From NCBI RefSeq assembly GCF_964355755.1, contig NC_092672.1, positions 13,202,501 to 13,266,500 on the forward strand: a DNA stretch of 64,000 nt, written 5' to 3'. The notes under the pieces were generated by a model. That model was not told the DNA's origin. It did no database searches and was given only the letters and a program-made list of their open reading frames with translations. This DNA is from Antedon mediterranea (lineage: Eukaryota; Echinodermata; Crinoidea; Comatulida; Antedonidae). Each line of letters begins with the position of its first letter. Within the stretch, counting starts at the first letter, position 1. Shown here in pieces: positions 3,417 to 54,834 of the stretch. The translations under genes and the position numbers were made by a program.

Positions 3417-3483
3417 ATGTTGAACGCTAAAGAGTATCTAAGTCTGGCAATTCTGACATTTGGTGCGTCAATGACGTCTGCAG
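3417..3483 (+). CDS. Gene 1 exon 1: signal peptide
   Basis: The exon starts at the ATG at 3417 (context ACCATG) and encodes MLNAKEYLSLAILTFGASMT before SA|G. This is a hydrophobic secretion signal with a plausible cleavage site after Ala. It ends in phase 1 at GT 3484. Gene 2 has a matching exon at 24400. Confidence 0.85.
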
Positions 3484-6400
3484 GTTAGTAACCATCTTTT
3501 TGCAAAACGTTATATATTTTTTTATTTTGAAAAATATTTGTGTCCTATTTAAATTGCATATCGTTTATTTTAGTTTGCCACAAATCAATAAGTTTTACTT
3601 AGTCTCAAGAGTAGTAGGTTACACTATTATTATAATTATTGTTGGAGAGACACACCTTACCGGTGACAGCGTTTGTTTAATGCTTTTGTCTTTCCTCGGC
3701 CTCGTGTCTTGTTTTTCATATATATATATATATTTTTATGTTTTTTTTTGTAATTATTATTTATGTTTATTGCCGAAATGAATAAAATAAATAAATAATA
3801 AATAAATAAAATTGGCACTGTGATACATCTACATTGAAAATCAAATCATATTGGAAATTAATTAATTACCTTAAAGATGTATTGTGTCCCTGAAAAATAA
3901 ACATTTTTTAATCCACTCTGAAAAAAAAATGGATCGAAACAAATTGTATTTACATGAAAAAAATGTAATTGAATAATAATTTAAAGCAAAAAATGGTAAA
4001 ATTGGCTGCCAGCCAATGGGGTTTTGGTTGAGTTTAACCATTTATTTTGTAATTTTATAAGTTTTATATCGTTTTTAATCCCCATAAGCAATTAACTTTA
4101 TTAAAACTACAAAATAATGTATTCAAAGTCTGATTTAAATAATCTTCATCTTTCAAGTTTTGGAGGACAATACATCTTTAATCAATTTAAACAGAAGCTA
4201 GTATCCTACTCCGCCTTCTCATTAGATGTACGTACTAATATTTCGTACACCAATAAATTTGCTGTAATGTTTATAAACTTTAGTATTTTTTAACATTATT
4301 TGTATATTTCTTGCATAATTTTACCTGTAATTGTGTTCTTTAATTCCATGGAAGACTAAAAAAATATACAATTGTATGTATTAACAATGCCGTTTCACGG
4401 TTTATGTTTTTTTTTATATTTGTATTGACTTGGTTTAATTTGATCCAATTGCTTTTAAAATAAAATTGTACACAGTAATAGAGATCTGTTATTCCTGGAG
4501 TACGGTGATTACTTAAGCACAATGGCAGTATACAAATAAAAAAAGTGTTTTTGAATAGTTGACGTGATGTTATTGCTTTTTTTGTGATGGGAAGTTTTAC
4601 TAAAATTTGTACCATATTTTGTTTTTAGCCAATACCACAATGGTATCTATACGTAAATAAGATACAATATTATATTTTACAGATGTTTTGGATTTCACAA
4701 TAGTGGTTAATAGTGCCGTGGTTGATGCAAACGATGAGGTTAATTTTGGTGGATACCTACATAAATCAGAAGAATCAACATTAATATTTCTAGGTCAAAA
4801 TATCCTTACAGAAACTGATTCTAATGAAAATGAAGTGGAATGGACGGATGGTGATAACCCGCCGATAGTCTTAGATAATTCATTCTTTCCAACTGGAACA
4901 AGTTTAGGCACAGAAACGACTTCAGAATACCAGGCTTTGATAATGACAATGCCCAACAGTAGTGGTATTGCAGAAGTAGGATCGTTTTACGGAAAAGCAA
5001 TGGCTCAAAGCAAAGAAGAATTTATACCTTTTGTTATTCTAAATTCAAATGGTAGTTTTCTATTTTTGTTTTTGGTTTCATTTTCTATAGACTGATCGTC
5101 TGAAATGGTATGGGGAAAGGAAAAGTCATCGGCATCAATAACAATACAATTATAAACACGTCTATATGTCATAGGCCTTATAGTATAAGATCATTTTAAA
5201 GACCAAAATAATATTCAGTCTTGTGTAAAGTCTATACTTCCATGCTTAAACATTGACCCGACACGATTGACATGATCTTTTTTTTTCTTTACGCCTTCCG
5301 TCGGACAATATTAACGATGGCGACAGGTACATGAACTCATTTAGACATAAACTGCATACATCGCACGCATGTATTGTTTTTTGTTCTTAATCTCTATTTT
5401 CCATTCTTATTACTTGTAATGTCTTTCTTTTATTTATATTGTTGTTACATTATTGTTGTTATGGTATGCGTAATGTAACTGTAACAAAAATAAAACTAAA
5501 ACATTAACAACTTAATATAATTAATATAATAATGAAGTGAATTCAACACTGTTTTTCCGCATAGCAACTGTTGTTCCTAAGTATCGATCTTTAACTGCAA
5601 GCATCGGTGATGATTTGACAGGCTTAATAATGGTAACCAGCTATGGGACAGGTAGTTACAGGTGGCGACATAATGGCGGAAATGTTATAACCTCATACAA
5701 TGGTAAAAGTAGCCTTGAATTGACCAATGTTCGTATGGCAGATGCGGGTGTATATGAGTGTTACTTACATGAAACAGGAAGAGACGGAAGGCATGCCATT
5801 ATTCAAATAAATGTTAAAGGTATGCATGATCTGATTGTTTAGACTGTAGCATTTTAGTGTTCAACTATACTAACTTTTTGAAGGTTTGGTTTAATAAAAA
5901 GTTTAAATCTAAAAATGTAATGCAACTTATGAATAAGCGACTAATAATTATGGTGTTAATATGTTATGTACGAAAATTACGCAATATCTGGAATATACAA
6001 TATGAAAATAACTATAATTAAGTAAGGGCATGTGGCGCAGTGTGTTGGACGTTGGACTACCGATCGCCAGACCTAGGTTCGAATCCAACTCTCGCCGCAT
6101 TGCTTGTATCCGTAGGCAAGATACTTTACTTACGTTGCCTCTCTCCACCCAGGTGTACCCAGTTAGATCTAGACACAACTTTGCGCTGGTTACCGGCTGC
6201 ATTATGGGAGTATGTTTCCATACGTGTTTGATCCCAAAAACATACTGGTTTGATGATTTGATGATTACTCATGAAAAGGGCGCTATATAAATGTGGTATT
6301 ATTATATAATTAAAACGGAATATGACAATTTTTAAAATAGCTGAAAACACATTAGGCCTGATACTGATTTTTGTAAAAATCAACAATTAAGTATTCTGCA

Positions 6401-9400
6401 TGTCAAAAGCGACTTTAAAGAGAAGGGAATCAAAGGGAAACAAAGAAAATGATAAAATTGAATGTAGAAGAATATTTTTCCTGATTTGACCGTTTGACCA
6501 ATCGGAGAACTTTGAAGCCATGTGATAACTTGTGTAATCAATAAACGATAGACGTTTGATTATAATCTGATAAAGCCTGGATTGTGTAAAAGACAGACAG
6601 AACCATAGTTATTATAAGGATTATCTTATATCAAATTTTTCGAATAGGATGTTCGAAAAGGAAGTGGGGAACAGATTGTGATTTAAATTGTCCTGTATGT
6701 TACAACGGTGGAATATGTGATCACATTACCGGCTTATGTATCTGCGCGGCTGGGTTCGAAGGTGTAGATTGTTCAAAAGGTAGTGTTTACACACAGTTTG
6801 TTTTACATTTCATTTTTTTTTTAAATTTAAACATAAATCCTTCAATTTGATTTCGTGTAAATAACGTCACTGCTGTCTATCTATTGTACCGTTGACATGG
6901 TACAGTTTTGGACCCTAAATAGACAGTAGCTGCATTTGTAGTCTGGTTGGTGGTATGTGTAATTATAGCTGTACTAGCAGGGAAGATTGAGCAATACTTT
7001 AATCTTCCCTGCTACTGTATGGAAGTTAAATATTATGGTTATGTTTACTTTAATATTAGCCTAAAAAATGGGAACCGTTATTATTTGAAAATCGAATTGT
7101 TTGGCTTATATACCATCTATTTACTTTCTGTAAATCGGCTTAGAATATTTAGCAAAGAATAAATAACAATGAGAAAGACCGTATTTATAATTTTGGATGT
7201 ATTTCTGTACAAATTGCATGTTTTATTACTCAACTGAGGCTTTGTATTTCAGGTTGTGAATCGTCGAACTGGGGAAGAGAGTGTTCTATAAATTCTGTAA
7301 CAGGACACATTGGAAAGACGTTTTGCCCTCCACATCCACTCAGTTGCTCTTGTTATGCTGGGTACACTGGACATGTATGTGATCAAGGTAATGAGACGAA
7401 ATTGCTAGATATCGTTATGTTGATTTGTATCTCAAAAATGTATCATTCAAATTGCTATAGTCCTACTTTTTTTTTTATAGAAAACTGAGTCCTTTTTGCA
7501 TTGCAAATAATCGTGTCTCGCTACCAGATCTTGAATTAAAATGAGATAACAATATTATTATTCGTCTATCAAAGTGTATTAAAAACTTAGGTGTAATGTT
7601 TGATAGCTCTTTAAATCTTACTTGAATCTTACTTGAATCTTACTTGAATCTTCGGGCTCTTGATTAAGGCAAATGCCTTTTAAACGCCCTCCATTTCTTC
7701 TGTATTTATCTAGAATTGGTAGCAAAATTTATCTCCCATTGCTCTGTCTTTGTTTAGTTGATCCTTGAATGCATTTATGTTTTCTGCTTGTACTGTAGTG
7801 TGGTATAGATTGTTCCATGTGTTGACGATTCTACATGAAAAGGAGTGGCTTCTGATTTTCAGTCGGGCTCTTGGCTTTCTTAATTTGAATTGATGGCCCC
7901 TTGTTCTACTGTCCTCTCTAAAGTCAAAAAAGGTTTCGGCTTCAATATCATCCAAGCCCTTGATAATTTTAAACACTTGTATAATGTCCGCTCTCCTTCT
8001 TCTGTAATTTAGTGTAGGTAATCCAAGCTCTTTTAATCTCTGATCGTAAGATTTATCTCTTAACTTTTTGACAATTTTAGTGGCCCTACGCTGCACTCTT
8101 TCAAGCTTATCCAAATCACCTTTTAGGAGAGGGTACCATATACAGCTTGCGTATTCCAGATGAGGTCGAATTATACTTTTATAAAGGGGCAGGAACATAT
8201 CCTTATCCATGTAAGCAAAAGATCGCCTTACCAATCCAATGAGTCTATTTGCTTTATTTACAGCTTCATTCGTATGTAGTGAAAATTTTAAAGACTGATC
8301 AAAAGTAACTCCAAGGTCCTTTTCAGTATTGGCATTTGGCAGATCCTCGTCACCTTCCTCTGTTGGCATAGTGAATTGCATTTGTGGATTTGAATTTCCA
8401 TAATGTATTACTTTACATTTATTAATGTTGAATTTCAGCTGCCATTTTTTAGACCAATCGGATAATGCCTTGAGATCATTTTGAACAGTATCATTTCTGT
8501 TTTCATACACAACATTAAACATCTTAGTGTCATCTGCAAACATCCATACTTTAGATTTAACTGCATCAGGTAGGTCGTTTATGAAAATTATAAATAATAA
8601 AGGGCCTAACACGCTGCCTTGAGGGACTCCGCTTTTAACCGTAGACCATTCAGAAAATGCTGCGGCCACTCTAACTCTTTGTCTCCTCCCTGTCAAAAAT
8701 TGATGTATCCATCTCAGTAGGTTTCCTTTTATTCCGTACGCTTCCAATTTTGTTATTAATCTCTGGTGGGGGATAGAATCGAATGCCTTACTAAAATCCA
8801 AATATACAGCATCAAAGTTTTCCCCCGCATCCAGCAATTTCATCCATTCTTCCATCACCTCCAGCAATTGTGTGACGCAAGATCTACCTTTCCGAAACCC
8901 ATGCTGTGCTTTTATAATAAGGTTTCTATCATTTAGAAACTGTATAATTTTGTCTCTCACAATTGATTCCAAAAGTTTGCATACGACAGATGTCAAACTT
9001 ACTGGCCTGTAGTTTCCGACCTCCGTCTTGTCCCCTTTCTTAAAAATTGGTACTACATTTGCACATTTCCAGCACTCCGGTAACTGTCCAGTCGATAGTG
9101 ATTTGTTGTATATTGACGTCAATGGAGTTGCAACAATTTCTTTAAGTTCCTTCAGTACTCTTGGATGCACGTCATCTGGTCCAGCTGATTTATTTGAGTT
9201 CATCTGCTGAAGGCATGTAAGCACTTCCTCCTTTGTCACTTCAATTGACTCCAAATGGTCATCCACGTCAACTCTTGGTGTAACTTCTGGCAATGACTCG
9301 AGGTCTTCATTCGTGAATACACTTGTGAAAAATGCGTTGAAAATTTCCGCTTTATGCTGATTGTCATCAGCCATATTACCCTTTCCATTCTTCACCAATC

Positions 9401-12400
9401 CAATAGATTGAGTTGTTTTGGTTTTCTCTCTTACATATTTCCAGAAACTTTTAGGATTTGTTTTTACTTCATTGCATATTTTCCGCTCCAGTGCAATCTT
9501 TGCTGCCCTTTTTTCACCTGTTACTATATTTCTTGCCTTTTTGTAACTGTCATAATCCTTCTGTTGTCGAGACCTTGTAAACTTTTTCCATGCATTATGT
9601 TTCATTTTAATTTTCCTCTGAACGTCACCAGTCATCCAGATAGGTTTATTTTCTTTTTTTATGTTTGACTTGGGAATACAGATCTGAACAGCATTTCTTA
9701 TTGATTTATTTAAAGCTTCACAGGCCTCTTCAACATTTGTATTTTCAAATTGGTAGTCCACCTCAGTAATCAGTTCTTTCATTTTAATATAGTCACCCTT
9801 GTTGAAATTTAGCTTATATTCCATTTTCTCTTGTATTTTAGTTACACAGTCATATGAAAACAAGATTGTTACGTGGTCGCTTTTTCCTAATGGTGGACCT
9901 ATCTCAATTTCACTTATTTTGGTTTCATCCATGGTGATTACTAAGTCGAGTATGTTAGGTGTTTGACCATCTCGAAATCGTGTTGGTTGCTGTATACACT
10001 GGCATAGAAAATTATCTCTAAGGCATTCTATAAACCGATTACTTTTATGTGTTTCATTTTTATTTGTACTCCAAGAAATCCAATCAATTTCAGGAAAATT
10101 GAAATCTCCTAACATGATGAAATCAGAAATACCATTTAGTTCACTTGCTTTGTTGATAGCAGATAGTAACGCTTGATTATTTTCGTCAATACTGTTAGGA
10201 CTTCTGTAAATACATCCGCATAATAGTTGTTGCCTTTTATTTATTTCAATTTTGATCCATAGTGCTTCCACAAAATTTAAATTCAGTAATTCGTTACAGA
10301 TACTGGCATTCAGCTCTTCCTTCGCAAAAATAACCACACCTCTACCACTTCTGCCAGAATCAAATTTTGTGTATCCCTTGATGCTTAACTCAACTTCCAA
10401 TATGTCTGTACAAGTTTTGTTATTTACTTCAGTTATTGCAACCACATCAGGTTTCCTTTGATTTATAATATCACGTAACTCACCCATTTTATTTCTCAGG
10501 GCATCTGCGTTTGTGTAAAGAAATTTCAACGACTTCTCATGAAAATCAACAATATCATCGTTTCTTAATCTAGATTTCTTCTGCTTTAATCCTTCTATAA
10601 AAGTTTTAAATTTTTTCTTGTCCTCTGAACATTTTTTTTTTCTTATAAATTTTTGTTTCACTTTTCTTTCTAAGTTAAAATAATTTTCTTCAAAACAAAA
10701 AGATTCTATATTTGAAAATTCTTTATGATGATGAACTAGGGCCTCGAAAACGATCAAACGCCAGTTCGCTATCCCGCTTCATAATTTTACCTCTTCTTAT
10801 AACAAGATCAATCTCGCCGTTATCTTTCCTTGATCTTAGTTCCTGTCTTAACTCATAGTTCATTTGCCTCTCTTTTTTTGATCTATCAGGATTAATATAT
10901 ATGTTCTTTAGAAATGCGTGATCCGTGCTTCTAAGTTTTTTTGCATTTACCATCACTTCCCTTTTACTTTTCAGGCTATCCAAAGAAACTCTTGCCATTC
11001 TACACCCGTCTTCCGTGTATTTCCCAAGCCTGATCACTTCAGTTATTTCAACTCCCTCTATCTCTAGACACTCATTGAATAATTTCTCAATAGCAACCCT
11101 GTCTTCCTTCAGTCTCTGCTGAGAACTTTGGTTATCAGATTCAGGTAGATTTTCGATCACAATATTTAATTTACGAGATTCTCTATCTCTATATTCTTCA
11201 ATGCCTTCCTGAACACTCTTTAATTTTCCCATCCATTAGATCGTAGCTCTCTTTTAATTCTATCAAATTATTTCTTGTGTCGACCTGGATTTTTTCAATG
11301 ACTTCAATGTTTTTATTGGTTATTGATGCTCTAAGCGCCTGATCTTTTTGCGTTTTTTCCACAATATTTAATCTCGCATTCATATTTTCCTGCAATTCAT
11401 TTATCTCCGCAATTTTCTTCAACAAAGGTAACTGTACAAGGCATGTATCACATGACCATAAAAAATTCTTTATTTCGCCGTCGGAGAGGAGAGCATACAT
11501 TTTATTTGAGAGTTTTGAACATTTCAGGCAGAAACACCTCTTACAAATGTCACAATTTACGCCCTTATCCTTTTCGCCTATGATGGTTTTACAGATAGCA
11601 CAAGCTCCCTCAACTGACTGTGGAGTTGCTTCCTGTTCAGGTTGGCTAGGCCTAGGCCTAGCATCTGCAGGCCTAAATCTAGGTTCCAGTTCCATATCCT
11701 TTCTATCCCTTGCCTTCCCTCTAGTAGTAGGCCTACCTTCAGCCATGGTTGTTAAGTTCAAGGAACACTAGGCCTAGCCCCTACACCCTGCTTCCAGGAC
11801 TCTATGCTCCTCTGTATGGATACTGTAGGCTTCACATGGGTCCAGTTGACTTACCCCGACTTAGCAAAGACGCTTCCAGAATATCGAAAAATATATCCTT
11901 TTTGATACAAATTTCTTGGTACTAGTACTTATTATCAATTAATATATCATATCATCCACTTTGAAGAACAATTTAAATCCCGGTTTCAAAGATTTTAGCA
12001 GATTTAATTCATGAGGTTCAGAGCAAAATAAAACTACATGTTGCATTATCGAATAGCGCCACCAAAAATGTCCTCTAAAGTAAATGCTTTATGAAAGTCA
12101 TTGAATAACCAACTCCGTAAGTGGCACATACTTCAATATATTTCTAAGGATGCAAGCCCCAATGCCGTCAGGGGACTGATCCTGTCCCGCCTTGACTACG
12201 CTAACTCGCTCTTGCTTGGTGCCCTCGAAGTTGATCCTAAACGATTACAGCGATTGCAGAACAAGACTGGTCGTTGCGTGTGGACGGGTGTGTTATTAAA
12301 AGATCTCCATTGGCTTCATATAAAAAAAAAGAATTTTGTACAGAAATATTGTTTTTGTTTATAAATGTATTTACTCTGTTGTTCCTTTGTACCTTTTTGA

Positions 12401-15400
12401 TTTAATTACGTTTAACCGTGATCAGCTTTCATTTAATTACTAATGTCGACTTCACTCCTCCAATGATCCCACCCGACTTTTCGTTCCACGATCTAATCGG
12501 AAAGCTGGTGACGGTGTTTTTTCTGTCACCGCTCTACGGATCTGTAACACGCTACCTGTCGATTTGAGAGGAGCGATTTCGGCATTCTTGTCTTCAGTTA
12601 AAATAAATAATAAATATAAATAACTTTTTAATTATGTATAGAATGTATACTGGGAATGTATGGTCCGAACTGCGCATGTGTGTGTCATTGTCCGACAAAT
12701 GTGTGCGATAGACATAAAGGTTGTGCCGAGGATTCTGAGTGTTATCTGGGTTATGCAGGAAAGACATGTCTAGGTGAGTGTAACATCAGTCAACGATCGT
12801 TACTTTTCTATCTATTCAAATGTATTTATGATTGTTAATTTCAAAACAATTAAACTTGTTTAATATTTTACAAATCAGAACACCTCTCCTGTCCACCTGG
12901 TATGTTCGGTGAATTTTGTCAATATACTTGTCACTGTGAGAGTAAAAAAACAGACATAATAGCAGGCTGTGACAAACATACTGGAGAATGTTTAAATGAC
13001 GCCAGCTGTGCTAGTGGATGGGCTGCGTCTGATTGTCAAATAGGTGAATTAGTTTATATTCAATAAATCGTATAAGATTTTTTTATTTGTAGTTCGATCA
13101 TCAATTAAAACAAATAAGCAATGCTCATATGCATACATTTTAATATATTATTTACTCACTAAATATTAATAGTATAAATAAATTTGATCCGAATTTCATT
13201 TTTTTCTTACACGATTTTATCGTTGAACAGTCGTCGTTATGTAACACAATATGCTTTAAAACATTCAGACTTTATCATTATCAGCTTTGCCAATTCTCAA
13301 ACGTAACCCAACTACAAGTGTTACAGAAAACAGTATAACTATAAGCTGGGAACCATGGACGAGTAGTATTGACTACGGAACCGGACCCGTCACAAAATAC
13401 CAAGTAATCTATCGGACACCACCGAACTCTGGATTTCCTTTTATATTATGGCGGGAAGTAAATGTGGACGATTTAATGCGAGTGGACATTGATGATTTAG
13501 AACCAAGAACTAACTATGAAATAAGAATTATTTTACATAGGCAGATTGATGGAGAGAATTATACATCAATTGGCTCAAGTAAAATAGTTGTTACCTCAGG
13601 AGAAGGTAAGAAAGATATACTAACTCATTTGCAAGATATATTTTATTACCGTTTTTATACAAGTGATATTATAGTCAAGTCAAGTCAAGTATAATCTTTA
13701 TTCGTTCCCACAAGGAGAAAATTACATTGCTCGTCTTCAAATACATCATAATTACAATATATAAAATAACATGACAATACAACAATACCAATATTAAAAA
13801 CTCACAACAAGAACATACATATTATTTCATGGTGCTCATCTACCTGTTGGCAGAAAGGAGAAAAGTTATCGGTTTGTCTCAGCAGCCGCGGATCTTCCAC
13901 TGCGAACACTCCTGAGACTGCCTAAATCGGAATTAACTTTCATCCCTCAACACCATCCCAAAAAGCCTGTCCAGGTTCTCGCAATAAACTTAATCCACCG
14001 ACTGCTGACACAAACCATACATCCTCTCAACCCTTCTTACCACACGATCAATTCTACCCTTATCTCCCTCTGTAACATTTCCATCCCACCCTGCAATACA
14101 ATATTTCCAAACCCCAACAATAATAGACTGATAGAATGTAATCAAAATATTATTATTTACACTGAACTTGTTTTATTACTACGGAAAGTAACATATTTTG
14201 GTTATTTTCAGACAAAATCATGGATTTTACATTTTATTGTGCCACACCACGAATTGACGTTGATGATAATACGATGTCTACGTTTATTGGCGGATATAGT
14301 GGCAGTGATCATCAAACAAATGATATACAAATCGGAAAAATTGTAACTGAAATTGGAGAAGATTTTCTCGGTCGTGAAATAACATGGAACGATGGATCCA
14401 AAGTAGGAGTGATATTGGGCAATGAAACCATGTTTCCAGCTGGAACTCGTGTCCAAATAGTAACTCCGGAAAACTTCAATGCATTGCGTGTGTTTATTGA
14501 CTCTGCCAGTGGCGTTAATAAACTGGGAGCATTTTACGCAAAAGCTAATAAATTACGAATGTGTAGTTATATATCTAGCGAAATTGTGTCAATCATCTTA
14601 AGTAAACATGGTAAGTTTTTGAAAAATCTTTCCACGGTAAGAGAATTGAATGATTATGACGTTGGTGGGACACAAGGTGCACATTAGCGACCATACTATA
14701 ATTATTTACATATTGTATATAATGATAGGTCTATATGAAAGAATGCAAAAGACCAAATGTGTTTTAATGTTTATCTATTTATTACCATCAATATACCATT
14801 GGAAAAAAGTGTATCCAGTCAAAGCAGTCATCAATTCAATTTTGGTCTTCATCAAATACAGCATGTTGAATTTGTAATAATATAATTTAGAATTATAATA
14901 AATTATTATTAATAGTTTCTTGTATACGGAGTATTATAAAATATGGTTATTGTTTAGATTTTACTTTGTGATACTGTTCAGTCATTACTTAATGTTAATT
15001 ATAATGTTGTAGCATCAGTAACGTCTGTTAAAAGAACTTGGACAACCGGTACAGGAGAACGTGTAATGATGGACATGGTTGCTGACAACTCGACAGATAA
15101 ATGGTGGCGCCACAACGGCATTACTCTTAACGAATGGAACAACAGTATTTTCATCCAAATAGATGTAGTAAGAAAACAAGATGCTGGAATATACGAATGC
15201 TTACCTAGCGAAAATTGGAAGAATGGCAATAAAGGAATTACAAACCTAATTGTCAGAGGTAAAACGAATTCTTTACTTTAAACAATATGATGCTTAACGA
15301 CTTGTAAAAATTGATTTTAAAGTCGTGATACTTTATTTTCACACCAGACTGTCCACTTCGTAAATGGGGACCACCTGATTGTTTACGCAACTGTCCAATT

Positions 15401-18400
15401 TGTTATAATGGCGGAGTTTGTGATGACATAACAGGATCATGTGTGTGTACTGTCGGTTTTCGCGGTATCAATTGTGAAACAGGTCTGTGAAGTTTAATTA
15501 TTTTATCTTTAATTCATTATCTAGGCCTATAAACACATTTACGTAAGGGCAAAATTTGGTAAATCTCGTCTAACTTTTAGAATTTTTACTCAATTATATA
15601 GAAAGTTGATACCTTTCAGTACTGATTTTTAACACATAACAAAAACCGGTACACAAATTAACTTTAGTTAGATAATTAATTATTGCCTATTAAAACGAAT
15701 TTAGGTTAAACGATTTGCCTCGAATATGAGGATGCTTCACTTCAGGCTCCGTATCTCTCAATAATTGTTTTTAATTTCTGATTCTCGGCACACAACTCGA
15801 TTACAAAATCGTAATGGTAAACTATTAAAACAAGTGATAAGAAATACTATTTTACTTTTAAAACATAGGCCTTTTCAGAGATTTTAACAACGTAGTAATA
15901 AAGATATAGACGAACTGATTAAGATTTAAGATTTAAGAGGTAAACAATAGGTATTTTTTTAAAGGCTAGCGTATTCGATTACTAAATGTTTCATTGTGTT
16001 TTATGTGGTACTTATTAACTTATAATGTATATGTACACAAAATACAATCAACTTTAGTACTGCAGTTTACACCATCCAATTCTCGTAGCTAAATTTTAAA
16101 TTTGTTCTCAAGTCAAGATCAATTATTTCATTTGGTACTGTACAAAATTATTCTTTTAATTTTTTTTTTCCGCGGAACAAAATTCTATTAAGGGGAAAAA
16201 TTCGTTTTTTTTTCTCGCAAAACACCTATTAAAAAAGGAAACAATTTCGTTTTTTGGTTAGTGTCTGAATGCAGGGACACTCTTATAACAAGCCCATATA
16301 CATGGCTGCAGTCGCGTGCTCAAGTTAGTGTTTACCGACCGACCGTCACGCGACTAATAAGAACAAAGGTGTCCTTTTAATAGGGATTATACTGTTTCGA
16401 GAACCATCTGTGAACACGACCTAGACGGTACGCGACCAAAGTCTATTAGTAATTGTCTGTATAAATTCATAAGGATATGTATGTACATATATTATAAATA
16501 AAACAAAACAATAAAGCCATCAACATGTTTGTCTGTATCTATATTAAGCCGTTTTGCCAACTTCAGTAACAATTATTATTAGGCCTACTAGATGGTACGC
16601 TCGCTTCGCTCGCGTACCATCTAGGTCGTGCCCACAGATGGTTCTCGAATACACAGTAATTTCAGCGTAACAAAACTGGCGATTTCAAATGTACGTACCG
16701 TAGGACTATAATACATTGTCGTTTACAGAAACGAATAAATAGACAAGATGGAGAAACTTATCAAAATGAGTCCAAATTTTTGATTTGGACTCATTTAAAG
16801 AAACCCAATTTGTGTTTTGTATGTAACATTAGGATTGAGGGATGGGAAAACGGATAGGTACAAAGAGGAACACTTTTTAAATATATTCTTTATTCACTCA
16901 GTAACGAAATATTTTTTTCATGTTTTATAGGCCTATAAATAATATACCTCTAAATACAGTAAAACATTTGCGATTTAATACTTTGTTAAAACTGTCACTG
17001 TCATAATCGATTGAAATATTAAAGTACATGTCACGATACACCACTACGACGTTTATATTTTTGGTAATTATTAATTAATACAAACGTTGAGAAGGAACTG
17101 TCAGTATAAAGTTTATTTGTATATAATAATGTGTTTATATATCTAACAGTAGAGCCTATCCACAATCTCAGTAATAAAGTATATTTGTATATATTTTTAT
17201 GTTACATCTAACAGTACGAACATTCACAGTAAGAAATGTTCGATTCAAATGAGGACCAAAAATAGTTAATAGGTATTTACAGTATTTTCAAAGTATTGCA
17301 AATTTATTCTCAAAGGGCCCATAAATTTACATACCGTATATGTTAAACCAAGGGCTCATAAATTTACCTACTTGTGTTAAACCAAACTCTGGCAGACTGA
17401 GAGATTGGGATGTTCCATTCATCGCAAATCAATACATTTGTATAATCGTATATTAAATCTATCAAAATAGTATTTTTTTAAAGAAAATCGGCCTGTCTTC
17501 AACATTATGATGGTGTACTCTAGCTGTTCAACTGGTTTTCAGCTATTAAAAACAATTATCGTAGGAGGAGATAGGAAAATGCGAAGCCTCCTCGCATTTT
17601 TGTGGCGGGTATTTTTCAAGATGGACATCCATTAGACAGTGTATACCACGATTGGAAAACACCCCTATTTGGAGCAAATCGTTGAACCTAAATTCGTTTT
17701 ATCTAACTTAATTTAATTAGTAAACAGGGTTACATCAGGTGGTTAAAATCAGTACCGAAAGTACGAACCAACTCTATATACCATCGAGTACAAATTCTAA
17801 AAGTAAGGCGCGATTTACCGAATTTTGCCCTTACGTAAATTTATATATAGATTATTATAGGGTAGTAGGACTAGCTTATATTTAGGAAATGGTAACCTGT
17901 CTTATTTTTCATTACTCTTTATTCGCAATATAGCATGTGGTTCACAATTATTTGGAAGGAATTGTGATATATATTGTTCAAAACATAGGGTTAACTCGTG
18001 TATGGGCAACATGATGTGTCCACCATCACCACAGGGATGTTCTTGCACTGATGGATATACTGGTCCGGACTGTATTCAAGGTATGATACGTCAAGAAGAT
18101 ATCTAACCATTTAAAATATCATTATGAAACTGCCTTATTTCTCAACATAATATTATATAGCGAAAATAAAATGACAGTTTAATTATGTTAAAGAAAATTC
18201 AATGTTAATGCTGTGTTATACATTAGTACACTTTTAATAAGTAGGCCTACATTTATAATGCTATACATTTAATTTTAATATGATTGATTTACATGTACTT
18301 TAAGGAAGTTATTTTGATGAGTATTTATCAGTTGTCTTTTTAAGGAAGGTGATTATCGATGTCATGTTATTTTGTAGTTTTAATAAAGTTGAAAAAAAAA

Positions 18401-21400
18401 ACAAAAAAAAAAACAAGATTTCACTTATAAAATAACCTAATAATTTGTTAAATTTAATTAGAAGTTCATTGGCTGACAGCTAATTTCAACATTAAAAAAA
18501 AAAATTTACAGTTTTTTCAGGTAAATAAATTTTGTTTCCTTCCAATTTTTTTATCAAAGTTGATAACTTCTATGTGGCATTAAAATTGCATATTCAACAA
18601 CAACAATATGTAATTTTTTTTTCAGGGAGACAATACATCTTTAATGTATTGCAATTAATCTATCTCTTATTTATACTTATAGATCCAACATTACCGATTA
18701 TGTAATAGATTGTACTGTTTTCATATAGCTTTTATTTGGTTATGTTAAATTATTCTGTTCTTTAAATTATTGTTATCTTGTTTATGTAAGTATTTTGAAA
18801 TGGAATAAATAAAAAGTAAATTATTAGTTATATATAAATGCAATTTACAGAATGTTCTCCTGGGATGTATGGGTCTGATTGTCAGCAGAGGTGCCAGTGT
18901 GACGTCAGTCATTGTGATCGAAAGTCAGGTTGTAATGGAACATGTTACGAAGGATATGCTGGACCTCAATGCCAAGGTAATAAACTTATCGAAGAAGGGA
19001 ACATTCCATAATTATCTGTCGAGTACGATCCTATTTTCTGGATAATCTTTATTTATCAAAATATATGATTCAAGTTGTTTAGTTGGTTTAGACTAGAACA
19101 AATGTCTCTATTTTAAAAGCGATTTTAGTGGACGTTCTGCGTATACCAATTGCCCTTCTTTCCAAGACATAGTTTTTTAAATTTCATACGCATCCAACAG
19201 CGATCGGTGACTCGCCAATTACAGGATGGATAAACTATTTAATACTTGATTGTGCTAATAAACTAAGTTTTATTTGAGGCTTAGGGAGAGTGAAGTTGAA
19301 AGAGTCGTCAGTTACATCCTTGGAACTAGGTCAGCATTGAACTCCGGACCTTGACATTGGAAGGCAAACACGTTAACCACCAAGCCAGAGCTCCACTACA
19401 AATAAAAATTTACCACAATTAAACATTCTACCATTTAAAATGTAAATTTGACATTTTTTTTTCAGTATTAGTGCATGATCGTACTTGTTCCAATGGTCAC
19501 TTTGGTGCCTTATGTAACTATCCTTGTCACTGCCAAGACTCATCAAATTGTCATCGTAATGGAAGCTGTGATAATGGATGTGCTGCCGAATGGACAGGGG
19601 CCGACTGCAGTATCGGTATGTTTTTGTTTTAAAATTAATTTTAGGCAGAAGAATAATGTGCCATCGAGACAAATAAACAATATTAAGGTTAGGTTTGCGA
19701 TATATCATGTCCTAAAGAAAATAATGTATTGAGAATGCCTACTTTACCATTTTAAATAGTATATTTGTAGTATTTAATGCAGTAATACCTGAATTGGTTG
19801 AAGATGTAATTACCAATTTTACTTAATCATAATACAACTTTTAAGTCATCAGATAGAGACAGATGAACAGAGTAGGTTTACCTACTGCTATACGATGTTA
19901 ATAAATTACTTTTCCGTAAAGGGAATAGTCTTATACATATTAAAATAATCAAGTACATTAATTGTGTGTACATTAATATAGCTCTGCCGTATATGAGGAA
20001 ATTAAACGTGACAAATATACAAGCAACCAGTATAGATGTGTCTCATTTATGGGTATTTGGCGAAGACTTTGGAACTGGACCCGCTACTGCTTATACATTA
20101 TGTTACCGCAGCACCAACGATTGGCTTTGTCAGAAAACAATACAAAGTCTGTCAACAATCAATGGCTTAATACCAAACACAACACTTGAAATAAAGGTTC
20201 AAGTTTTCAAAAAGATTGGTTATGATGACATTGGAGGTCCTATGAAAACAGTTACAAGAATCAGAACTATTTGTCTCGGTAAGTTCTAAACTTGATCAAT
20301 TAGTTTAATTTGTCTATTTTTACTCTATAGTTCACTATGTCGGTCGGTCTGTCGGTCGGTCTGTCTGTCGGTCTGTCGGTCTGTCTGTCTGTCTGTCGGT
20401 CCGGTATCACTATGCGTTTTATCGCTTTCTGACCTTATCTTGATATCAGTTTAATCTAGCTAAGTCAATTTTTCACAGTATATTCCTTATGACCAGGAAT
20501 CGTTGTGGTTATGTTTTCACGGTGCCCAATAAAAAATTACGCGGTCTACGCACGATCTAACGAAATCACGTTTGTAATCATATCTTCACAACCATGAATC
20601 ACAATTAAATAAAATTTGGTACTCATAAATTTCAGGGCATAAATCATCATATGGCAATACAATTACGTGCGTAGCGCATGTAACGCATGCGTACGCGCGC
20701 TTAAAATTTTCAAAATTTATTTTCGATGAAATAAGAGTACGTTTCAGGCAAATTTAAGCGTTTACAAAATTGCCATGAGTGCGCAGATTTTTGTGCGCAC
20801 TGCGCGTTAAATGTTATTGCGCACTCTTTTTGCCCGATTTCTGTTTTCTTGACTTACTTTTCAACTCGAAATTACGTTATACGAGCACGTCAAAAGTGAC
20901 AGGCTACGCACGTGTAAATTTAAAAAATATAAATGTTTTTAAACATTTCAACATTTTTAAACAGGTTCAGTAATTTCGGTCAGTTGGTAGGTTGGTCGGT
21001 CGGTCTGTCTGTCGGTCTGTCTGTCGGTCTGTCGGTCGGTCTGTCGGTCCGGTATCACTATGCATTGTAGCACGCGACTTAATGGCTGTTGGCCTTGTTT
21101 ATTATAGTTTAAAAATAAAAATAAACTCTATCCAACTCTAATCTAAGCAATATAATCTCATTTCCTTTATAAATATCTTTTTACAAAATCAGTTCTGACC
21201 CTTTTGGTGACGACAATATTGTCATTGAAACTGAATGTGGTAGAATAATAATTGAAAATTTTATATACAATACTGATTTATTCATAATTTTATCTTTTTT
21301 TATTCATTTTGATTTTTCATTTTCATTGTAAAAACCTGTACAACCAATAGTGGAATTAGAATTACATGTACAATATATAATATATATATTATATTGGTTG

Positions 21401-23100
21401 AACAAAACATTTACGCAAAATATGACAGGGAGTATATCATAACTGTAATTTTAGTACAATTTAATACAAAATGAAAATATAGAATATAATAGAGCACTGG
21501 AAGGTAAGATTTACTAAGATGAATTATCAATTACAGAACCTCTTGATTCGCCAAAGGTAGAAACATTGTCAACCAACAAGGACACTATTGTAGTAAAATG
21601 GAAGGTGGGCATTTTCAATGTATTTTTTAATTACCTTATTGTTGTTGTACCTTAATAAAACATCCATTTTTTGAGCTAATGTATTGTTTTATCTGTCTTA
21701 AAATTTGCCAGTCACAAGTATATAGACAGTATCGAATTTTGATCGATAAACTTTTATGTGTTAATAATAATGTAAACGACATTTTACTGTAGTTATGTTT
21801 ACTTTTCTCCAAGGCTGTAGATTTCAATCCTACGCGGTTGCAGTGTGACAGTTTATTACATTACGACGTTGGTTACCAAACTGGGATTAAAGACGCTTGG
21901 GAAACATTTCAAGTTAATTATGATCAGACCGAAGCAACTATTAACTTTTTAGATTATGACATGGTATATCAAGTTAGAGTTAGGGCAGTGAATACAGCAG
22001 GAATTACAGGACCATGGAGTGAAATATGGACAATTAAAATTCCAGAAAATAAAACAGGTCAGGTTTCGTTCTTTGTAATTGACAATTACCCAGACTCTAT
22101 AGACTCAGCATCAGTGCGCTTAGCAGTAAAAAATAAATAAATAAATAAATAAAAATAAAATACCAGGAAATTTCAAACAATAGTAAACAAAATTATAAAA
22201 TAGCTGTGTTTGTTACTCTTGTCTTTTTTCGATACTTTTTTCCATCTACTAACACTCATCTACTAGGCCTAAGTAAACTAATTGTTTATACATTTACTCT
22301 CATCTACTAGGGTAAACTATTTATTTATATATTTACTTTCATCTATTAAATACACGATTTGTTTATACATTATTTTACTCTCATCTACTAAATAAACTAA
22401 TTGTTTATACATATTCTCTCATCTACTTAATACAGTATAAGAATACATTGACTTTCATCTATTAAATAATCGAATTGTTAATAAATTTTCTTATTTAGGA
22501 TCAAAGATAGCTATATATGTGCTCTCATCAGTGGTCGCATTGTTAGTTATTTCTACCGTTGTGGTTCTTGACAAATTGAGGTATGTGTCGAATGACCCTG
22601 GTTAGACCTATATTGCAATTAAGTGTATTCATTTGAATAATCAACTGAAACTTACAACATTTCATCTCTCATCAGTGACGCCATAACAGTATTTAAACCT
22701 TTATCATTGAGTAATAACTATGCTTACTAATTCCTATTTCAGACGAATTAAACGCCAGGTTAACGGATATAAAAAGGATTCTGGAAACTTTCAGATTAAC
22801 ACAATATCAAAGCCGTCACAAAATTACCAAGACGACAGTTACACTTCACTGCAAAAAGAAGCGTGTTGTTTGGTAGAATCTCCGAACAATACCTACGAAC
22901 AAGAAACCCCAAAAGACGAGATATTTTATTTGAACGTTACCAATTTATCCCAAAATAAACAAACAGAAGACGCCATAGCCGATACTGATACAACGTATGA
23001 TGAAATCTTTGTTGGCGGTTTAGAGAAGGAAAGAGGAACTGATGCACGAAAAAAACCTCCGGTGCCTAAGAAACCAACACTAACGAATGACAAAGAATAA
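3417..23100 (+). CDS. Gene 1: kinase-less Tie-like receptor with a doubled ectodomain (19 exons)
   Basis: Exons: 3417-3483, 4683-5051, 5565-5819, 6648-6779, 7253-7387, 12642-12773, 12879-13043, 13285-13605, 14212-14610, 15013-15258, 15348-15482, 17934-18080, 18851-18976, 19466-19615, 19982-20278, 21537-21604, 21814-22057, 22499-22580, 22743-23100. They sum to 3,828 nt, 1,275 residues plus stop, with no internal stop. Order: signal peptide 1-22; Ig1-like 23-145; Ig 146-230; four EGF 231-418; FN3 419-525; second Ig1-like 526-658; Ig 659-740; four EGF 741-926; FN3 927-1025; FN3 1026-1129; membrane helix in 1130-1156; tail 1157-1275. Ig-Ig-EGF-FN3 order and WG..C EGF starts match Tie/TEK receptors, but the stop follows a short tail with no kinase. 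Presumably a cell-surface receptor or decoy; ligand unknown. Splice sites were placed by eye. Confidence 0.88.
4683..5051 (+). CDS. Gene 1 exon 2: Ig1-like N-terminal domain, module 1
   Basis: This 369-nt exon is phase 1 at both ends. It encodes a domain of about 123 residues with no cysteine pair. It resembles the N-terminal Ig domain of Tie receptors in pattern: VEWTDGDNPP in the middle and VGSFYGKAMAQ near the end, where Tie2 has a GAYF-type strand. It is homologous to exon 9 (14212-14610). The fold assignment is an inference. Confidence 0.75.
5052..5564. other. Gene 1 intron 2
   Basis: The intron is AT-rich, with a T-rich run near 5278. I see no gene or clear repeat. Confidence 0.5.
5565..5819 (+). 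CDS. Gene 1 exon 3: Ig domain, module 1
   Basis: This 255-nt exon is phase 1 at both ends. It encodes an Ig-like domain with YRWRHNGG (C-strand Trp) and the DAGVYECYL F-strand signature. The B-strand cysteine is missing, as in exon 10, so the usual disulphide may not form. Confidence 0.85.
6026..6308 (+). mobile_element. tRNA-derived SINE
   Basis: The head is tRNA-like, with an A-box-like TGGCGCAGTGTG and an exact B box GGTTCGAATCC (6077-6087). An unrelated body follows, and the tail reads GGGCGCTATATAAATG followed by TATTATTAT. The tail resembles the 3' end of the L2-like LINE fragment near 57200, a typical SINE-LINE pairing. It lies in intron 3 of gene 1. Confidence 0.75.
6648..6779 (+). 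CDS. Gene 1 exon 4: EGF-like domain 1, module 1
   Basis: This 132-nt exon is phase 1 at both ends. It encodes KRKWGTDC...CYNGGICD...CICAAGFEGVDC, an EGF domain with the WG..C start seen in Tie receptors. Its counterpart in module 2 is 15348-15482. Confidence 0.88.
6780..7252. other. Gene 1 intron 4
   Basis: The intron contains a short inverted repeat (GCAGGGAAGATTGA near 6978 and TCTTCCCTGC near 7004) and no gene. A 71-residue open frame at 6947-7162 has no recognisable feature. Confidence 0.45.
7253..7387 (+). CDS. Gene 1 exon 5: EGF-like domain 2, module 1
   Basis: This 135-nt exon is phase 1 at both ends. It encodes CESSNWGREC... ending CSCYAGYTGHVCDQ. The cysteine spacing matches 17934-18080 in module 2. 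Confidence 0.87.
7480..7619 (+). mobile_element. L2-like LINE relic, left piece (split by CR1 insertion)
   Basis: A plus-strand frame reads SKCIKNLGVMFDSSLNL, the conserved NLGV..D..L block just after the palm of L2/CR1-type reverse transcriptases. It breaks off at 7619 and resumes at about 12063. Confidence 0.7.
7710..10757 (-). CDS. CR1-like LINE ORF2: AP endonuclease and reverse transcriptase
   Basis: The uninterrupted 1,015-residue frame carries out target-site nicking and reverse transcription of the element. The N-terminal third is an APE-type endonuclease: YTNADALRNKMGEL, VVAITEVNN, GDFNFPEIDW and GKSDHVTILF. The middle is the RT: RPVSLTSVVCK, YLDFSKAFDSIPH (motif A), GVPQGSVLGPLLF (motif B) and MFADDTKMF (motif C with the catalytic DD). 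The C-terminal part has the ANRLIGLVRRSFAYMDKD and HLEYASCIWYPLL blocks typical of CR1/Jockey-type elements. Its start overlaps the end of the preceding frame by 35 bases. No stop or frameshift is seen. Confidence 0.93.
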   Translation of the reverse strand: MIVFEALVHHHKEFSNIESFCFEENYFNLERKVKQKFIRKKKCSEDKKKFKTFIEGLKQKKSRLRNDDIVDFHEKSLKFLYTNADALRNKMGELRDIINQRKPDVVAITEVNNKTCTDILEVELSIKGYTKFDSGRSGRGVVIFAKEELNASICNELLNLNFVEALWIKIEINKRQQLLCGCIYRSPNSIDENNQALLSAINKASELNGISDFIMLGDFNFPEIDWISWSTNKNETHKSNRFIECLRDNFLCQCIQQPTRFRDGQTPNILDLVITMDETKISEIEIGPPLGKSDHVTILFSYDCVTKIQEKMEYKLNFNKGDYIKMKELITEVDYQFENTNVEEACEALNKSIRNAVQICIPKSNIKKENKPIWMTGDVQRKIKMKHNAWKKFTRSRQQKDYDSYKKARNIVTGEKRAAKIALERKICNEVKTNPKSFWKYVREKTKTTQSIGLVKNGKGNMADDNQHKAEIFNAFFTSVFTNEDLESLPEVTPRVDVDDHLESIEVTKEEVLTCLQQMNSNKSAGPDDVHPRVLKELKEIVATPLTSIYNKSLSTGQLPECWKCANVVPIFKKGDKTEVGNYRPVSLTSVVCKLLESIVRDKIIQFLNDRNLIIKAQHGFRKGRSCVTQLLEVMEEWMKLLDAGENFDAVYLDFSKAFDSIPHQRLITKLEAYGIKGNLLRWIHQFLTGRRQRVRVAAAFSEWSTVKSGVPQGSVLGPLLFIIFINDLPDAVKSKVWMFADDTKMFNVVYENRNDTVQNDLKALSDWSKKWQLKFNINKCKVIHYGNSNPQMQFTMPTEEGDEDLPNANTEKDLGVTFDQSLKFSLHTNEAVNKANRLIGLVRRSFAYMDKDMFLPLYKSIIRPHLEYASCIWYPLLKGDLDKLERVQRRATKIVKKLRDKSYDQRLKELGLPTLNYRRRRADIIQVFKIIKGLDDIEAETFFDFREDSRTRGHQFKLRKPRARLKIRSHSFSCRIVNTWNNLYHTTVQAENINAFKDQLNKDRAMGDKFCYQF
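10723..11232 (-). CDS. CR1-like LINE ORF1, second part (L1-ORF1p-like)
   Basis: The 169-residue frame has RESRKLNIVIENLPES, EVIRLGKY and RMARVSLDSLKSKREVMVNA, then a basic C-terminus with QELRSRKDNGEIDLVIRRGK. This is the RRM-plus-C-terminal-domain pattern of LINE ORF1 RNA-binding proteins. It lies in the +1 frame relative to the PHD frame and overlaps it by 35 bases. It could be a separate ORF, a frameshift product, or one ORF1 broken by a mutation near 11215. Confidence 0.8.
   Translation of the reverse strand: MGKLKSVQEGIEEYRDRESRKLNIVIENLPESDNQSSQQRLKEDRVAIEKLFNECLEIEGVEITEVIRLGKYTEDGCRMARVSLDSLKSKREVMVNAKKLRSTDHAFLKNIYINPDRSKKERQMNYELRQELRSRKDNGEIDLVIRRGKIMKRDSELAFDRFRGPSSSS
11198..11761 (-). 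CDS. CR1-like LINE ORF1, PHD-finger part
   Basis: The 187-residue frame has a PHD zinc finger at residues 50-110: CAICKTIIGEKDKGVNCDIC, then CFCLKCSKL, and WSCDTC at the end. A coiled-coil-like segment follows. PHD fingers in ORF1 are known from CR1-type elements. The frame ends at 11198, and the next piece continues in the +1 frame. Confidence 0.85.
   Translation of the reverse strand: MNLTTMAEGRPTTRGKARDRKDMELEPRFRPADARPRPSQPEQEATPQSVEGACAICKTIIGEKDKGVNCDICKRCFCLKCSKLSNKMYALLSDGEIKNFLWSCDTCLVQLPLLKKIAEINELQENMNARLNIVEKTQKDQALRASITNKNIEVIEKIQVDTRNNLIELKESYDLMDGKIKECSGRH
12063..12622 (+). mobile_element. L2-like LINE relic, right piece
   Basis: The decayed plus-strand 3' part of an L2-like LINE reads SKVNAL*KSLNNQLRKWHI, GLILSRLDYANSLLLGA, KRLQRLQNKTGRCV and LKDLHWLH. 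After frame breaks, RKAGDGVFSVTALRICNTLP (near 12500-12565) is the usual C-terminal block. It continues the piece ending at 7619. It ends about 20 bases before exon 6. Confidence 0.75.
12642..12773 (+). CDS. Gene 1 exon 6: EGF-like domain 3, module 1
   Basis: This 132-nt exon is phase 1 at both ends. It encodes ECILGMYGPNCACVCHC...CDRHKGC...CYLGYAGKTCL, the counterpart of 18851-18976. It resembles the CHPGFYGPDC EGF of Tie receptors. Confidence 0.87.
   Translation, partial: NVYWECMVRTAHVCVIVRQMCAIDIKVVPRILSVIWVMQERHV
12879..13043 (+). CDS. Gene 1 exon 7: EGF-like domain 4, module 1
   Basis: This 165-nt exon is phase 1 at both ends. It encodes CPPGMFGEFCQYTCHCES...CDKHTGECLN.ASCASGWAASDCQI with eight cysteines. 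Gene 2 keeps only the second half of this exon (28251-28340). Confidence 0.87.
13285..13605 (+). CDS. Gene 1 exon 8: FN3 domain, module 1
   Basis: This 321-nt exon is phase 1 at both ends. It encodes an FN3 domain: SITISWEPW, then GPVTKYQVIYRTPP, then LEPRTNYEIRI. It is nearly identical to gene 2 exon 28999-29319. Confidence 0.9.
13672..14178 (-). mobile_element. 5'-truncated LINE 3' end
   Basis: Read on the minus strand, this piece encodes a decayed RT C-terminal block (LITFYQSIIVGVWKYCIAGW) and ends in AATAAAG followed by a short (ACTTG)n tail at 13672-13690. The same intron in gene 2 (29320-29418) lacks it, and TATTA flanks both ends, so it is an insertion into gene 1 only. The clade is uncertain. 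Confidence 0.72.
14212..14610 (+). CDS. Gene 1 exon 9: Ig1-like domain, module 2
   Basis: This 399-nt exon is phase 1 at both ends. It encodes a second N-terminal-type domain: MDFTFYCATPRIDVDDNT, REITWNDGSK and VNKLGAFYAKANK. It follows an FN3 exon, which shows that the whole ectodomain module starts again. Gene 2 has a near copy at 29419-29817. Confidence 0.82.
15013..15258 (+). CDS. Gene 1 exon 10: Ig domain, module 2
   Basis: This 246-nt exon is phase 1 at both ends. It encodes STDKWWRHNGITLNEW and the F-strand signature KQDAGIYECLPSENW. The first Ig cysteine is absent. Confidence 0.87.
15348..15482 (+). CDS. Gene 1 exon 11: EGF-like domain 1, module 2
   Basis: This 135-nt exon is phase 1 at both ends. 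It encodes CPLRKWGPPDCLRNCP, then CYNGGVCDDITGSCVCTVG. This is the clearest Tie-like EGF, with the same order and cysteine spacing as the first EGF of Tie2. Confidence 0.9.
15537..17852. mobile_element. 2.3 kb element with long terminal inverted repeats (family A)
   Basis: The left end reads TTTACGTAAGGGCAAAAT and the right end is its inverse (ATTTTGCCCTTACGTAAAT near 17821), with similarity extending inward about 300 bases. The centre holds GCTCGCTTCGCTCGC (16599) and a perfect hairpin of GAGTCCAAAT near 16768. Gene 2 lacks it (short intron 33458-33975). It is related to 48022-54655. No transposase is seen, so it is non-autonomous. Confidence 0.78.
17934..18080 (+). CDS. Gene 1 exon 12: EGF-like domain 2, module 2
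   Basis: This 147-nt exon is phase 1 at both ends. It encodes CGSQLFGRNCDIYC, then CPPSPQGCSCTDGYTGPDC. It matches the second EGF of Tie receptors in its FGR.C start and P.GC.C end. Confidence 0.9.
18390..18640. mobile_element. TTAA MITE, partial copy
   Basis: The right terminal repeat is clear (GGGAGACAATACATCT then TTAA at 18641). The inner sequence resembles the right ends of the copies at 3875-4177 and 30313-32785. No matching left end is found. Confidence 0.55.
18851..18976 (+). CDS. Gene 1 exon 13: EGF-like domain 3, module 2
   Basis: This 126-nt exon is phase 1 at both ends. It encodes ECSPGMYGSDCQQRCQCDVS, then CDRKSGC...CYEGYAGPQCQ. Confidence 0.9.
19262..19400 (-). mobile_element. 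tRNA-derived SINE, minus strand
   Basis: On the minus strand, a tRNA-like head has A box TGGCTTGGTGG and a B-box-like GGAGTTCAATGC. A short body runs to about 19262. It lies in gene 1 intron 13. Confidence 0.6.
19466..19615 (+). CDS. Gene 1 exon 14: EGF-like domain 4, module 2
   Basis: This 150-nt exon is phase 1 at both ends. It encodes LVHDRTCSNGHFGALCNYPC, then CHRNGSCDNGCAAEWTGADC. It replaces the gap between EGF 3 and FN3 in the vertebrate Tie order. Confidence 0.9.
19982..20278 (+). CDS. Gene 1 exon 15: FN3 domain, module 2
   Basis: This 297-nt exon is phase 1 at both ends. It encodes NIQATSIDVSHLWVFGEDFG, then TGPATAYTLCYRS, then LIPNTTLEIKV, an FN3 fold pattern. It is homologous to exon 8. 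Confidence 0.88.
20321..21090. mobile_element. Element with two (GTCTGTCGGT)n tracts (family B)
   Basis: Two simple-sequence tracts (20340-20402 and 20993-21050) bracket about 590 bases of unique sequence; each is followed by CCGGTATCACTATGC. A reverse-complement copy is at 51915-52757, where both ends carry AGTCGCGTG-type inverted repeats. Here the left end appears clipped. Confidence 0.7.
21537..21604 (+). CDS. Gene 1 exon 16: membrane-proximal FN3, first half
   Basis: This 68-nt exon runs from phase 1 to phase 0. It encodes PLDSPKVETLSTNKDTIVVK then W, the A and B strands of an FN3 domain. It is the only ectodomain intron that is not phase 1. Confidence 0.85.
21814..22057 (+). CDS. Gene 1 exon 17: membrane-proximal FN3, second half
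   Basis: This 244-nt exon runs from phase 0 to phase 1. It encodes CDSLLHYDVGYQTG, then YDMVYQVRVRAVNTAGITGP, the classical C-terminal part of FN3. Confidence 0.9.
22243..22495 (+). repeat. Intronic tandem repeat before the membrane exon
   Basis: About six degenerate copies of a CATCTACTAAATAAACTAAT / GTTTATACAT unit (about 40-50 bp). Gene 0 has fewer copies at 215-345. Confidence 0.65.
22499..22580 (+). CDS. Gene 1 exon 18: transmembrane segment
   Basis: This 82-nt exon runs from phase 1 to phase 2. Its helix is the same as in gene 0 (IAIYVLSSVVALLVISTVVV), followed by DKLR. Confidence 0.9.
22743..23100 (+). CDS. Gene 1 exon 19: cytoplasmic tail
   Basis: This 358-nt exon encodes a 119-residue tail and stop. 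Tyrosine sites include YQDD, YTSL, YEQE, YLNV (in IFYLNV) and YDEI. The end is KKPPVPKKPT. The YGNV site of gene 0 reads SGNF here. No kinase motifs (no GxGxxG loop, HRD or DFG) are present. Confidence 0.9.
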
Positions 23101-24399: not shown

Positions 24400-24469
24400 A
24401 TGTTAAACGCTATTGAGTATCTGAGTCTGATTTTTCTGTTATGTTTCTGTGCGTCGATGACGTCTGCAG
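24400..24469 (+). CDS. Gene 2 exon 1: signal peptide
   Basis: The ATG at 24400 is in the ACCATG context. The exon encodes MLNAIEYLSLIFLLCFCASM then TSA and ends in phase 1 at GT 24470. It is one codon longer than gene 1 exon 1. Confidence 0.82.
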
Positions 24470-52675: not shown

Positions 52676-52710
<35 letters not shown>

Positions 52711-54655: not shown

Positions 54656-54834
54656 GGACAATTTACACAGTGCAACGCAACATCATTGATTTACATATAC
54701 ACAATATTATTTAAAAAACCGTTGCGAATTAAATTTGGAATTTATTCTGACTTGTTAAGCCTCCACTGATTGTGAGGGCGTTTGTTGTATGAGAAAATGT
54801 ATCTGGTGGGTGAAAATCTGTGATAATACCACAT

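Follow-up and report, generated by a model that had tools for sequence, protein, structure and literature searches.

A receptor gene with a doubled ectodomain

The stretch of DNA analysed here, referred to as the window, comprises 64,000 nucleotides (C3:13,202,501-13,266,500) of a 354 Mb genome in 18 contigs, and its positions 3417-23100 hold what is very likely one receptor gene, denoted G4. When G4 was rebuilt by hand from the raw sequence, its 19 exons joined in a single frame, as an earlier note on this DNA had reported, and every intron was found to start with GT and end with AG. The encoded protein has 1,259 residues followed by a stop, 16 fewer than the 1,275 given in that note, and the cytoplasmic tail has 118 residues rather than 119. 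The domain order proposed there reappears in the rebuilt model: Ig1-like, Ig, four EGF and FN3 domains, the same module a second time, and then another FN3, one transmembrane (TM) helix and the tail. Introns separating whole domains are in phase 1; one FN3 is divided between exons 16 and 17, and the intron after exon 18 is in phase 2. The features, numbered as in the window, are as follows.

1-952, +, 3' end of the neighbouring copy G3: end of exon 17 (to about 51), TM exon (351-432), tail exon (595-952)
3417-3483, +, exon 1, N-terminal, signal-peptide-like by eye, with ATG and GT donor; also in G1-G3
4683-5051, +, exon 2, Ig1-like, module 1; 31% identity to exon 9, among 13 aligned copies
5565-5819, +, exon 3, Ig, module 1; Pfam Ig_3 at E 3e-6 and 28.1 bits, narrowly missing the cut-off of 30
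6648-6779 and 7253-7387, +, exons 4-5, EGF 1-2, module 1
7710-11767, -, non-LTR retroelement in intron 5, outside the receptor; reverse transcriptase ORF at 7710-10778 (1,022 codons) and upstream ORFs, named by eye
12642-12773 and 12879-13043, +, exons 6-7, EGF 3-4, module 1
13285-13605, +, exon 8, inter-module FN3; Pfam fn3, and grouped with a doubled RPTP in the FN3 tree (UFBoot 100)
14212-14562, +, exon 9, Ig1-like, module 2; one of the aligned Ig1-like copies
15013-15258, +, exon 10, Ig, module 2; the TEK match (E 5e-36) starts in its last part
15348-15482, 17934-18080, 18851-18976 and 19466-19615, +, exons 11-14, EGF 1-4, module 2; the TEK match spans EGF1-3
19982-20278, +, exon 15, FN3 of module 2; from the Pfam search and the FN3 tree
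21537-21604 and 21814-22057, +, exons 16-17, last FN3; Pfam fn3 at E 1.4e-13 (half-protein), the best stretch lying here
22499-22580, +, exon 18, TM helix; hydropathy 2.68
22743-23100, +, exon 19, cytoplasmic tail with ITIM IFYLNV, ITSM TTYDEI, PPVPKKP and stop; from the tail motif scan and the genome search
24400-39136, +, degraded copy G5: exon-1-like piece, half of exon 7, exons 8-18 (18 diverged) and a broken tail

A single segment of the G4 model, residues about 1113-1140, exceeds the hydropathy threshold of 1.8 and corresponds to the TM helix; exon 1 (MLNAKEYLSLAILTFGASMTSA) has the look of a signal peptide by eye only and stays under that threshold. For the Ig1-like family, a profile search of the PDB returned one match (E 1.5), taken as chance, and AlphaFold2, run for the Ig1-like exon with three sequences, gave a pLDDT of 35.5, too low to be of use. 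The stretches 15527-17852, in an intron of the gene, and 48022-54664, downstream of the array described below, are made of a common mosaic of dispersed repeats.

Four tandem copies and a remnant

A genome search with the tail gave six places, all in one tandem array, and a search with the Ig1-like domain of exon 9 gave 19 places. Mapped with the window and 64.5 kb of upstream sequence, the array comprises four copies, from G1 (C3:13,142,379-13,163,125) to G4, each holding all 19 exons in order, and the degraded G5, for which exons 2-6 were not found in window 24,400-39,136. The reading frames of G1, G3 and G4 are uninterrupted (1,260, 1,260 and 1,259 residues). Splice sites are kept across the four copies save for two altered donors in G2, at exons 9 and 18. 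With a nearby GT used as the exon-9 donor, the G2 ectodomain model is open; its exon 18 is shortened and runs into a stop immediately after the TM segment, the tail exon being otherwise open (C3:13,184,769-13,185,366). In each of the four 19-exon copies the tail exon reads open, with 92-94% identity to the G4 tail, and the copies as a whole are 90.1-95.3% identical in pairwise comparison.

Summed over the six copy pairs, module 1 has a dS of 0.05 and a dN/dS of 0.40, and module 2 a dS of 0.16 and a dN/dS of 0.39. The corresponding dN/dS of the tail, 0.35, is consistent with constraint, yet the changes behind it are few and non-independent. Taken singly, exons 2, 16 and 18 have dN/dS values close to 1 or higher, from a small number of changes. 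Exon 2 hardly differs among the copies (dS 0.006, dN/dS 1.1), which suggests that gene conversion has likely acted in the array, and divergence is greatest in exon 12, the second EGF of module 2 (dS 0.31, dN 0.18). The single-gene reading of window 3417-23100 draws on the 19-exon plan shared by four tandem copies, one of which runs into a stop right behind the TM segment, beside a remnant; an exon-1 match occurs once per array copy and a TM segment once per model. Judged from four copies, three of them open throughout, and from summed dN/dS values of about 0.4 per module and 0.35 for the tail, the open structure of G4 is not due to chance.

Likeness to Tie receptors

The earlier note had read the ectodomain as having the domain order of Tie receptor kinases. 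This holds for one cassette, since the module is homologous to TEK (PDB) within Ig2 through EGF3 (E 5e-36), and it fails beyond: G4 has a fourth EGF, and its FN3 exon directly follows the EGF4 exon with no third Ig between them. The Tie order includes a third Ig between EGF and FN3. In addition, Pfam Ig_Tie2_1 (PF10430) matches none of the 13 Ig1-like copies. The array receptors thus share with Tie1 and TEK the Ig2-EGF1-3 cassette, an FN3 near the membrane and a single membrane pass; they differ in their fourth EGF and doubled module, and in having no detected kinase, Ig_Tie2_1 match or third Ig.

An apparent Tie kinase gene, separate from the array, which the earlier note had advised looking for, was found at C6:15,071,889-15,107,586. 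Read outside the stretch 15,080,001-15,098,000, it contains Ig_Tie2_1, Ig, a Tie-type EGF1, FN3, a TM segment and tyrosine-kinase exons. Its Ig_Tie2_1 match (E 7e-5, 23.5 bits) is slightly below the curated cut-off of 25, the best PDB matches of its catalytic-loop exon are TEK, and the remaining kinase pieces were assigned by eye. Seven kinase pieces of this gene found no match at E<=0.01 in the 128.5 kb of array and window, which bears out the earlier statement that the receptor has no kinase. Eight phosphatase (PTP) pieces from the animal's own receptor phosphatases (RPTPs) likewise gave no match there at E<=0.01; the same pieces gave 54 matches in a gene cluster on C6.

Across Ig2 and EGF1, identity between G4 and the animal's Tie is 34.9% in module 1 and 38.1% in module 2, compared with 41.5-55.4% and 40.0-47.5%, respectively, for RPTP copies. 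Among the relatives compared in this genome, G4 is by this measure nearer to RPTPs than to Tie, with a clear margin in module 1 and a small one in module 2. Because a Tie gene exists elsewhere and identity to the RPTPs is higher, the array is not simply the animal's Tie gene minus its kinase. The description of a Tie ectodomain uncoupled from its kinase is not supported, given the different order, the lack of Ig_Tie2_1 in all 13 copies and the closer RPTPs. Elsewhere, a weak Ig_Tie2_1-like exon (C6:7,243,843-7,244,031, minus strand; E 0.5) adjoins a Tie-type EGF cassette upstream of PTP matches and is perhaps part of an RPTP with a Tie-like first domain.

Receptor phosphatases with the same module

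Seven of the Ig1-like places lie on C6 and represent six genes (C6:30.40-30.52 Mb). The last module of all six consists of Ig1-like, Ig, four EGFs and FN3, with PTP matches downstream on the same strand; in the gene at 30,475,810 the last FN3 gave no match in the module search. Five of these genes have a single module and one, at 30,439,020-30,461,667, is doubled. On ORF reading, the doubled RPTP runs through module 1, FN3, module 2, FN3s (about five by eye), a TM segment and two PTP domains, D1, with the loop VHC/AGVGRTG, and D2, with HRDGRSRCG, which is without the catalytic cysteine. A further single-module gene is found upstream of PTP matches on C5. The D2 loop DGRSRCG occurs in three of the C6 RPTP genes and looks inactive, and in three C6 genes other than the doubled one (30,414,350; 30,429,600; 30,475,810) VY stands where the VHC of D1 is expected, so that D1 looks degenerate.

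The ectodomain is common to the array and to RPTP genes of this genome, and the relationship was followed in midpoint-rooted trees, several nodes of which were weak (40-63) in the whole-module and Ig1 trees. In the FN3 tree, the exon-8 FN3 of the array and the FN3 lying between the modules of the doubled RPTP form one group (UFBoot 100), and the module-2 FN3 of the array is placed with the other FN3s from C6 and C5 (92). When whole modules are compared, array module 1 joins the C6 RPTP copies (100) and array module 2 joins the C5 gene (99). The two modules of the doubled RPTP both cluster with the other C6 copies (whole-module tree 100, Ig1 tree 89), a pattern for which conversion or independent doubling of those domains is possible.

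These comparisons make descent of the array receptors from the RPTP lineage well supported, with RPTPs among their nearest relatives found in this genome, and we hold lineage and architecture together with high confidence. An RPTP-type ancestor that was already doubled is the probable source of the doubled ectodomain; against a simple shared doubling, independent doubling or later conversion is possible. The array receptors and RPTPs have the same module in the same order, and one RPTP has the same doubling with the same type of inter-module FN3. They differ in that the array has no detected PTP domain and a tail that the genome search found nowhere else.

The array belongs to a large superfamily of Ig/EGF/FN3 genes, many members of which are RPTPs. 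A search with an EGF1-2 peptide, in which 150 of 408 candidates were scored, found cassettes clustered on many contigs. At least 59 of 150 cassette matches are followed downstream, on their own strand and no more than 40 kb away, by a PTP match, a lower bound taken from 150 of 161 cassette, 128 of 153 PTP and 125 of 156 kinase matches. Random placements (n=200) gave a mean of 1.0 and a maximum of 5, with exact sizes for C3, C5 and C6 and estimated sizes for other contigs. Kinase matches downstream were found for 0 of the 150, a weak result, as the kinase search scored 133 of 772 candidates and its matches included no real Tie gene exon. Large clusters of Tie-type EGF cassettes with PTP exons at C5:7.65-8.08 Mb, C5:25.20-25.33 Mb and C6:26.05-26.39 Mb suggest a large RPTP expansion. 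Repeated Ig1-like/Ig/EGF/FN3 modules also occur in another gene family, at C3:27,624,405-27,659,061; the 40 kb searched there gave neither a PTP nor a kinase match, and its cytoplasmic part was not found.

A cytoplasmic tail with ITIM and ITSM motifs

The tail has no Pfam match. Among its six tyrosines are one ITIM (IFYLNV) and one ITSM (TTYDEI), 23 residues apart, a feature absent from the earlier note; near its end lies the SH3-type proline run PPVPKKP, and the tail contains no ITAM match. Motifs of this kind serve vertebrate immune checkpoint receptors in recruiting phosphatases, and PECAM-1 also has a spacing of 23. In 20,000 shuffles of the tail, an ITIM arose in 15.0%, an ITSM in 5.4%, both in 0.7% and both at a distance of 15-35 in 0.24%, figures that are descriptive, as the motifs were picked after the tail had been read. 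Since the four copies do not differ in their ITIM and ITSM codons, conservation of the motifs carries little information.

The patterns used, [SIVL]xYxx[IVL] for ITIM and TxYxx[VI] for ITSM, follow the consensus given in passages of PMC8631942, where the two motifs of PD-1 and BTLA are separated by 25 residues. With these inhibitory receptors the array shares a short cytoplasmic tail in which an ITIM precedes an ITSM at similar spacing (23 here versus 25); in contrast, the array ectodomain is unrelated.

A possible partner is encoded on the same contig. SH2 matches at C3:14,097,618, 14,098,416 and 14,100,440 are followed by PTP matches at 14,103,067 and 14,104,357, the order of a SHP-like SH2-SH2-PTP gene; this candidate (C3:14.0976-14.1045 Mb) is drawn from match order. 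At C11:18.07 Mb an SH2 match lies 5 kb from a kinase match.

Proposed mechanism and alternatives

We propose that a receptor of the RPTP lineage lost its phosphatase and recruits one instead, a reading to which, with its SHP-type recruitment and inhibition, we give slightly less than an even chance. An RPTP-type ancestor would have lost both cytoplasmic PTP domains, the unique 118-residue tail taking their place. Ligand or cell contact would cluster the receptors, a Src-type kinase would phosphorylate the ITIM and ITSM tyrosines, and the phosphorylated pair would dock the two SH2 domains of a SHP-type phosphatase. The receptor would then act in trans to dampen tyrosine signalling, much as RPTP relatives would do in cis. 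The proposal builds on the gene structure, the lineage evidence, the lack of a detected enzyme domain, the motifs and the matches in SHP order, from which we infer phosphorylation, SHP binding, inhibition, a ligand and a cell type. Against it, short tyrosine motifs arise easily, an ITIM alone appearing in 15% of shuffles, and G2 has its stop right after the TM segment.

The tail could instead make the protein an activating or scaffold receptor, for example in engulfment or adhesion, that recruits Grb2/Drk through pYLNV, Src-family SH2 domains through pYDEI and SH3 proteins through PPVPKKP. YLNV is compatible with a Grb2-type pYxN site and YDEI with a Src-SH2 site, so that the motifs fit these classes too; the proline run and a weak resemblance of the EGFs to PEAR1 and scavenger-receptor types point the same way. 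The paired ITIM and ITSM at near-canonical spacing are, however, the more specific match, and we consider this alternative rather unlikely. A decoy role, already entertained in the earlier note, is possible, as is that of a co-receptor whose doubled ectodomain binds RPTP ligands or pairs with RPTPs, the tail being minor. Such roles would suit an ectodomain common to RPTPs and the stop in G2, behind an open ectodomain model; set against a tail exon open in all four copies, at 92-94% identity to that of G4 and with a dN/dS of 0.35, they seem unlikely.

The strict earlier view, a Tie receptor gene minus its kinase with the ectodomain doubled, can point to the TEK homology of Ig2-EGF1-3 (E 5e-36) and is nonetheless very improbable, given the Tie kinase gene elsewhere, an Ig2+EGF1 identity of 35-38% to the animal's own Tie versus 40-55% to RPTP copies, and the existence of a doubled RPTP. 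Equally hard to credit is an artefact, either two adjoining genes merged (the two separate transcripts considered in the earlier note) or an incomplete model whose enzyme exon lies elsewhere (its downstream kinase exon): the model does rest on genomic sequence, but all 19 exons stand in order in four copies, an RPTP gene repeats the doubled order, each copy model has one exon 1 and one TM segment, and neither kinase nor PTP matches occur in the 128.5 kb.

Returning to the proposed loss and recruitment of a phosphatase, a wider reading would be that checkpoint-type receptors were made from receptor phosphatases in an invertebrate lineage, a cis-acting phosphatase giving way to an ITIM-ITSM tail with trans recruitment in a diversifying tandem array, as an independent origin of the PD-1-type tail. 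We regard this as possible but on the whole doubtful. An immune setting for the array is suggested only indirectly, by the tandem diversifying array, the ITIM/ITSM-type tail and oyster haemocyte markers; the tail lends some support to the immune-type receptor among the roles raised in the earlier note. In passages of PMC12064177, three consecutively numbered oyster 'Angiopoietin-1 receptor' genes are listed as markers of cluster 1, assigned by the authors to macrophage-like haemocytes, and may serve as a lead to an immune role. In the titles and abstract openings from a literature search, and in passages of PMC8631942, PMC12064177 and PMC11999971, we recognised neither RPTPs with a Tie cassette nor a PTP-less ITIM relative.

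The finding connects the Tie ectodomain with receptor phosphatases and with ITIM/ITSM receptors, three subjects that are usually kept separate. Ig-EGF cassettes of the Tie type often lie upstream of phosphatase exons in this genome (at least 59 of 150 matches), in which one Tie kinase gene was found. Should the predicted function of the tail hold, the array would exemplify a route from an enzyme-bearing to a docking receptor with similar output, and would offer a concrete candidate, in an invertebrate, for inhibitory receptors of immunity or allorecognition.
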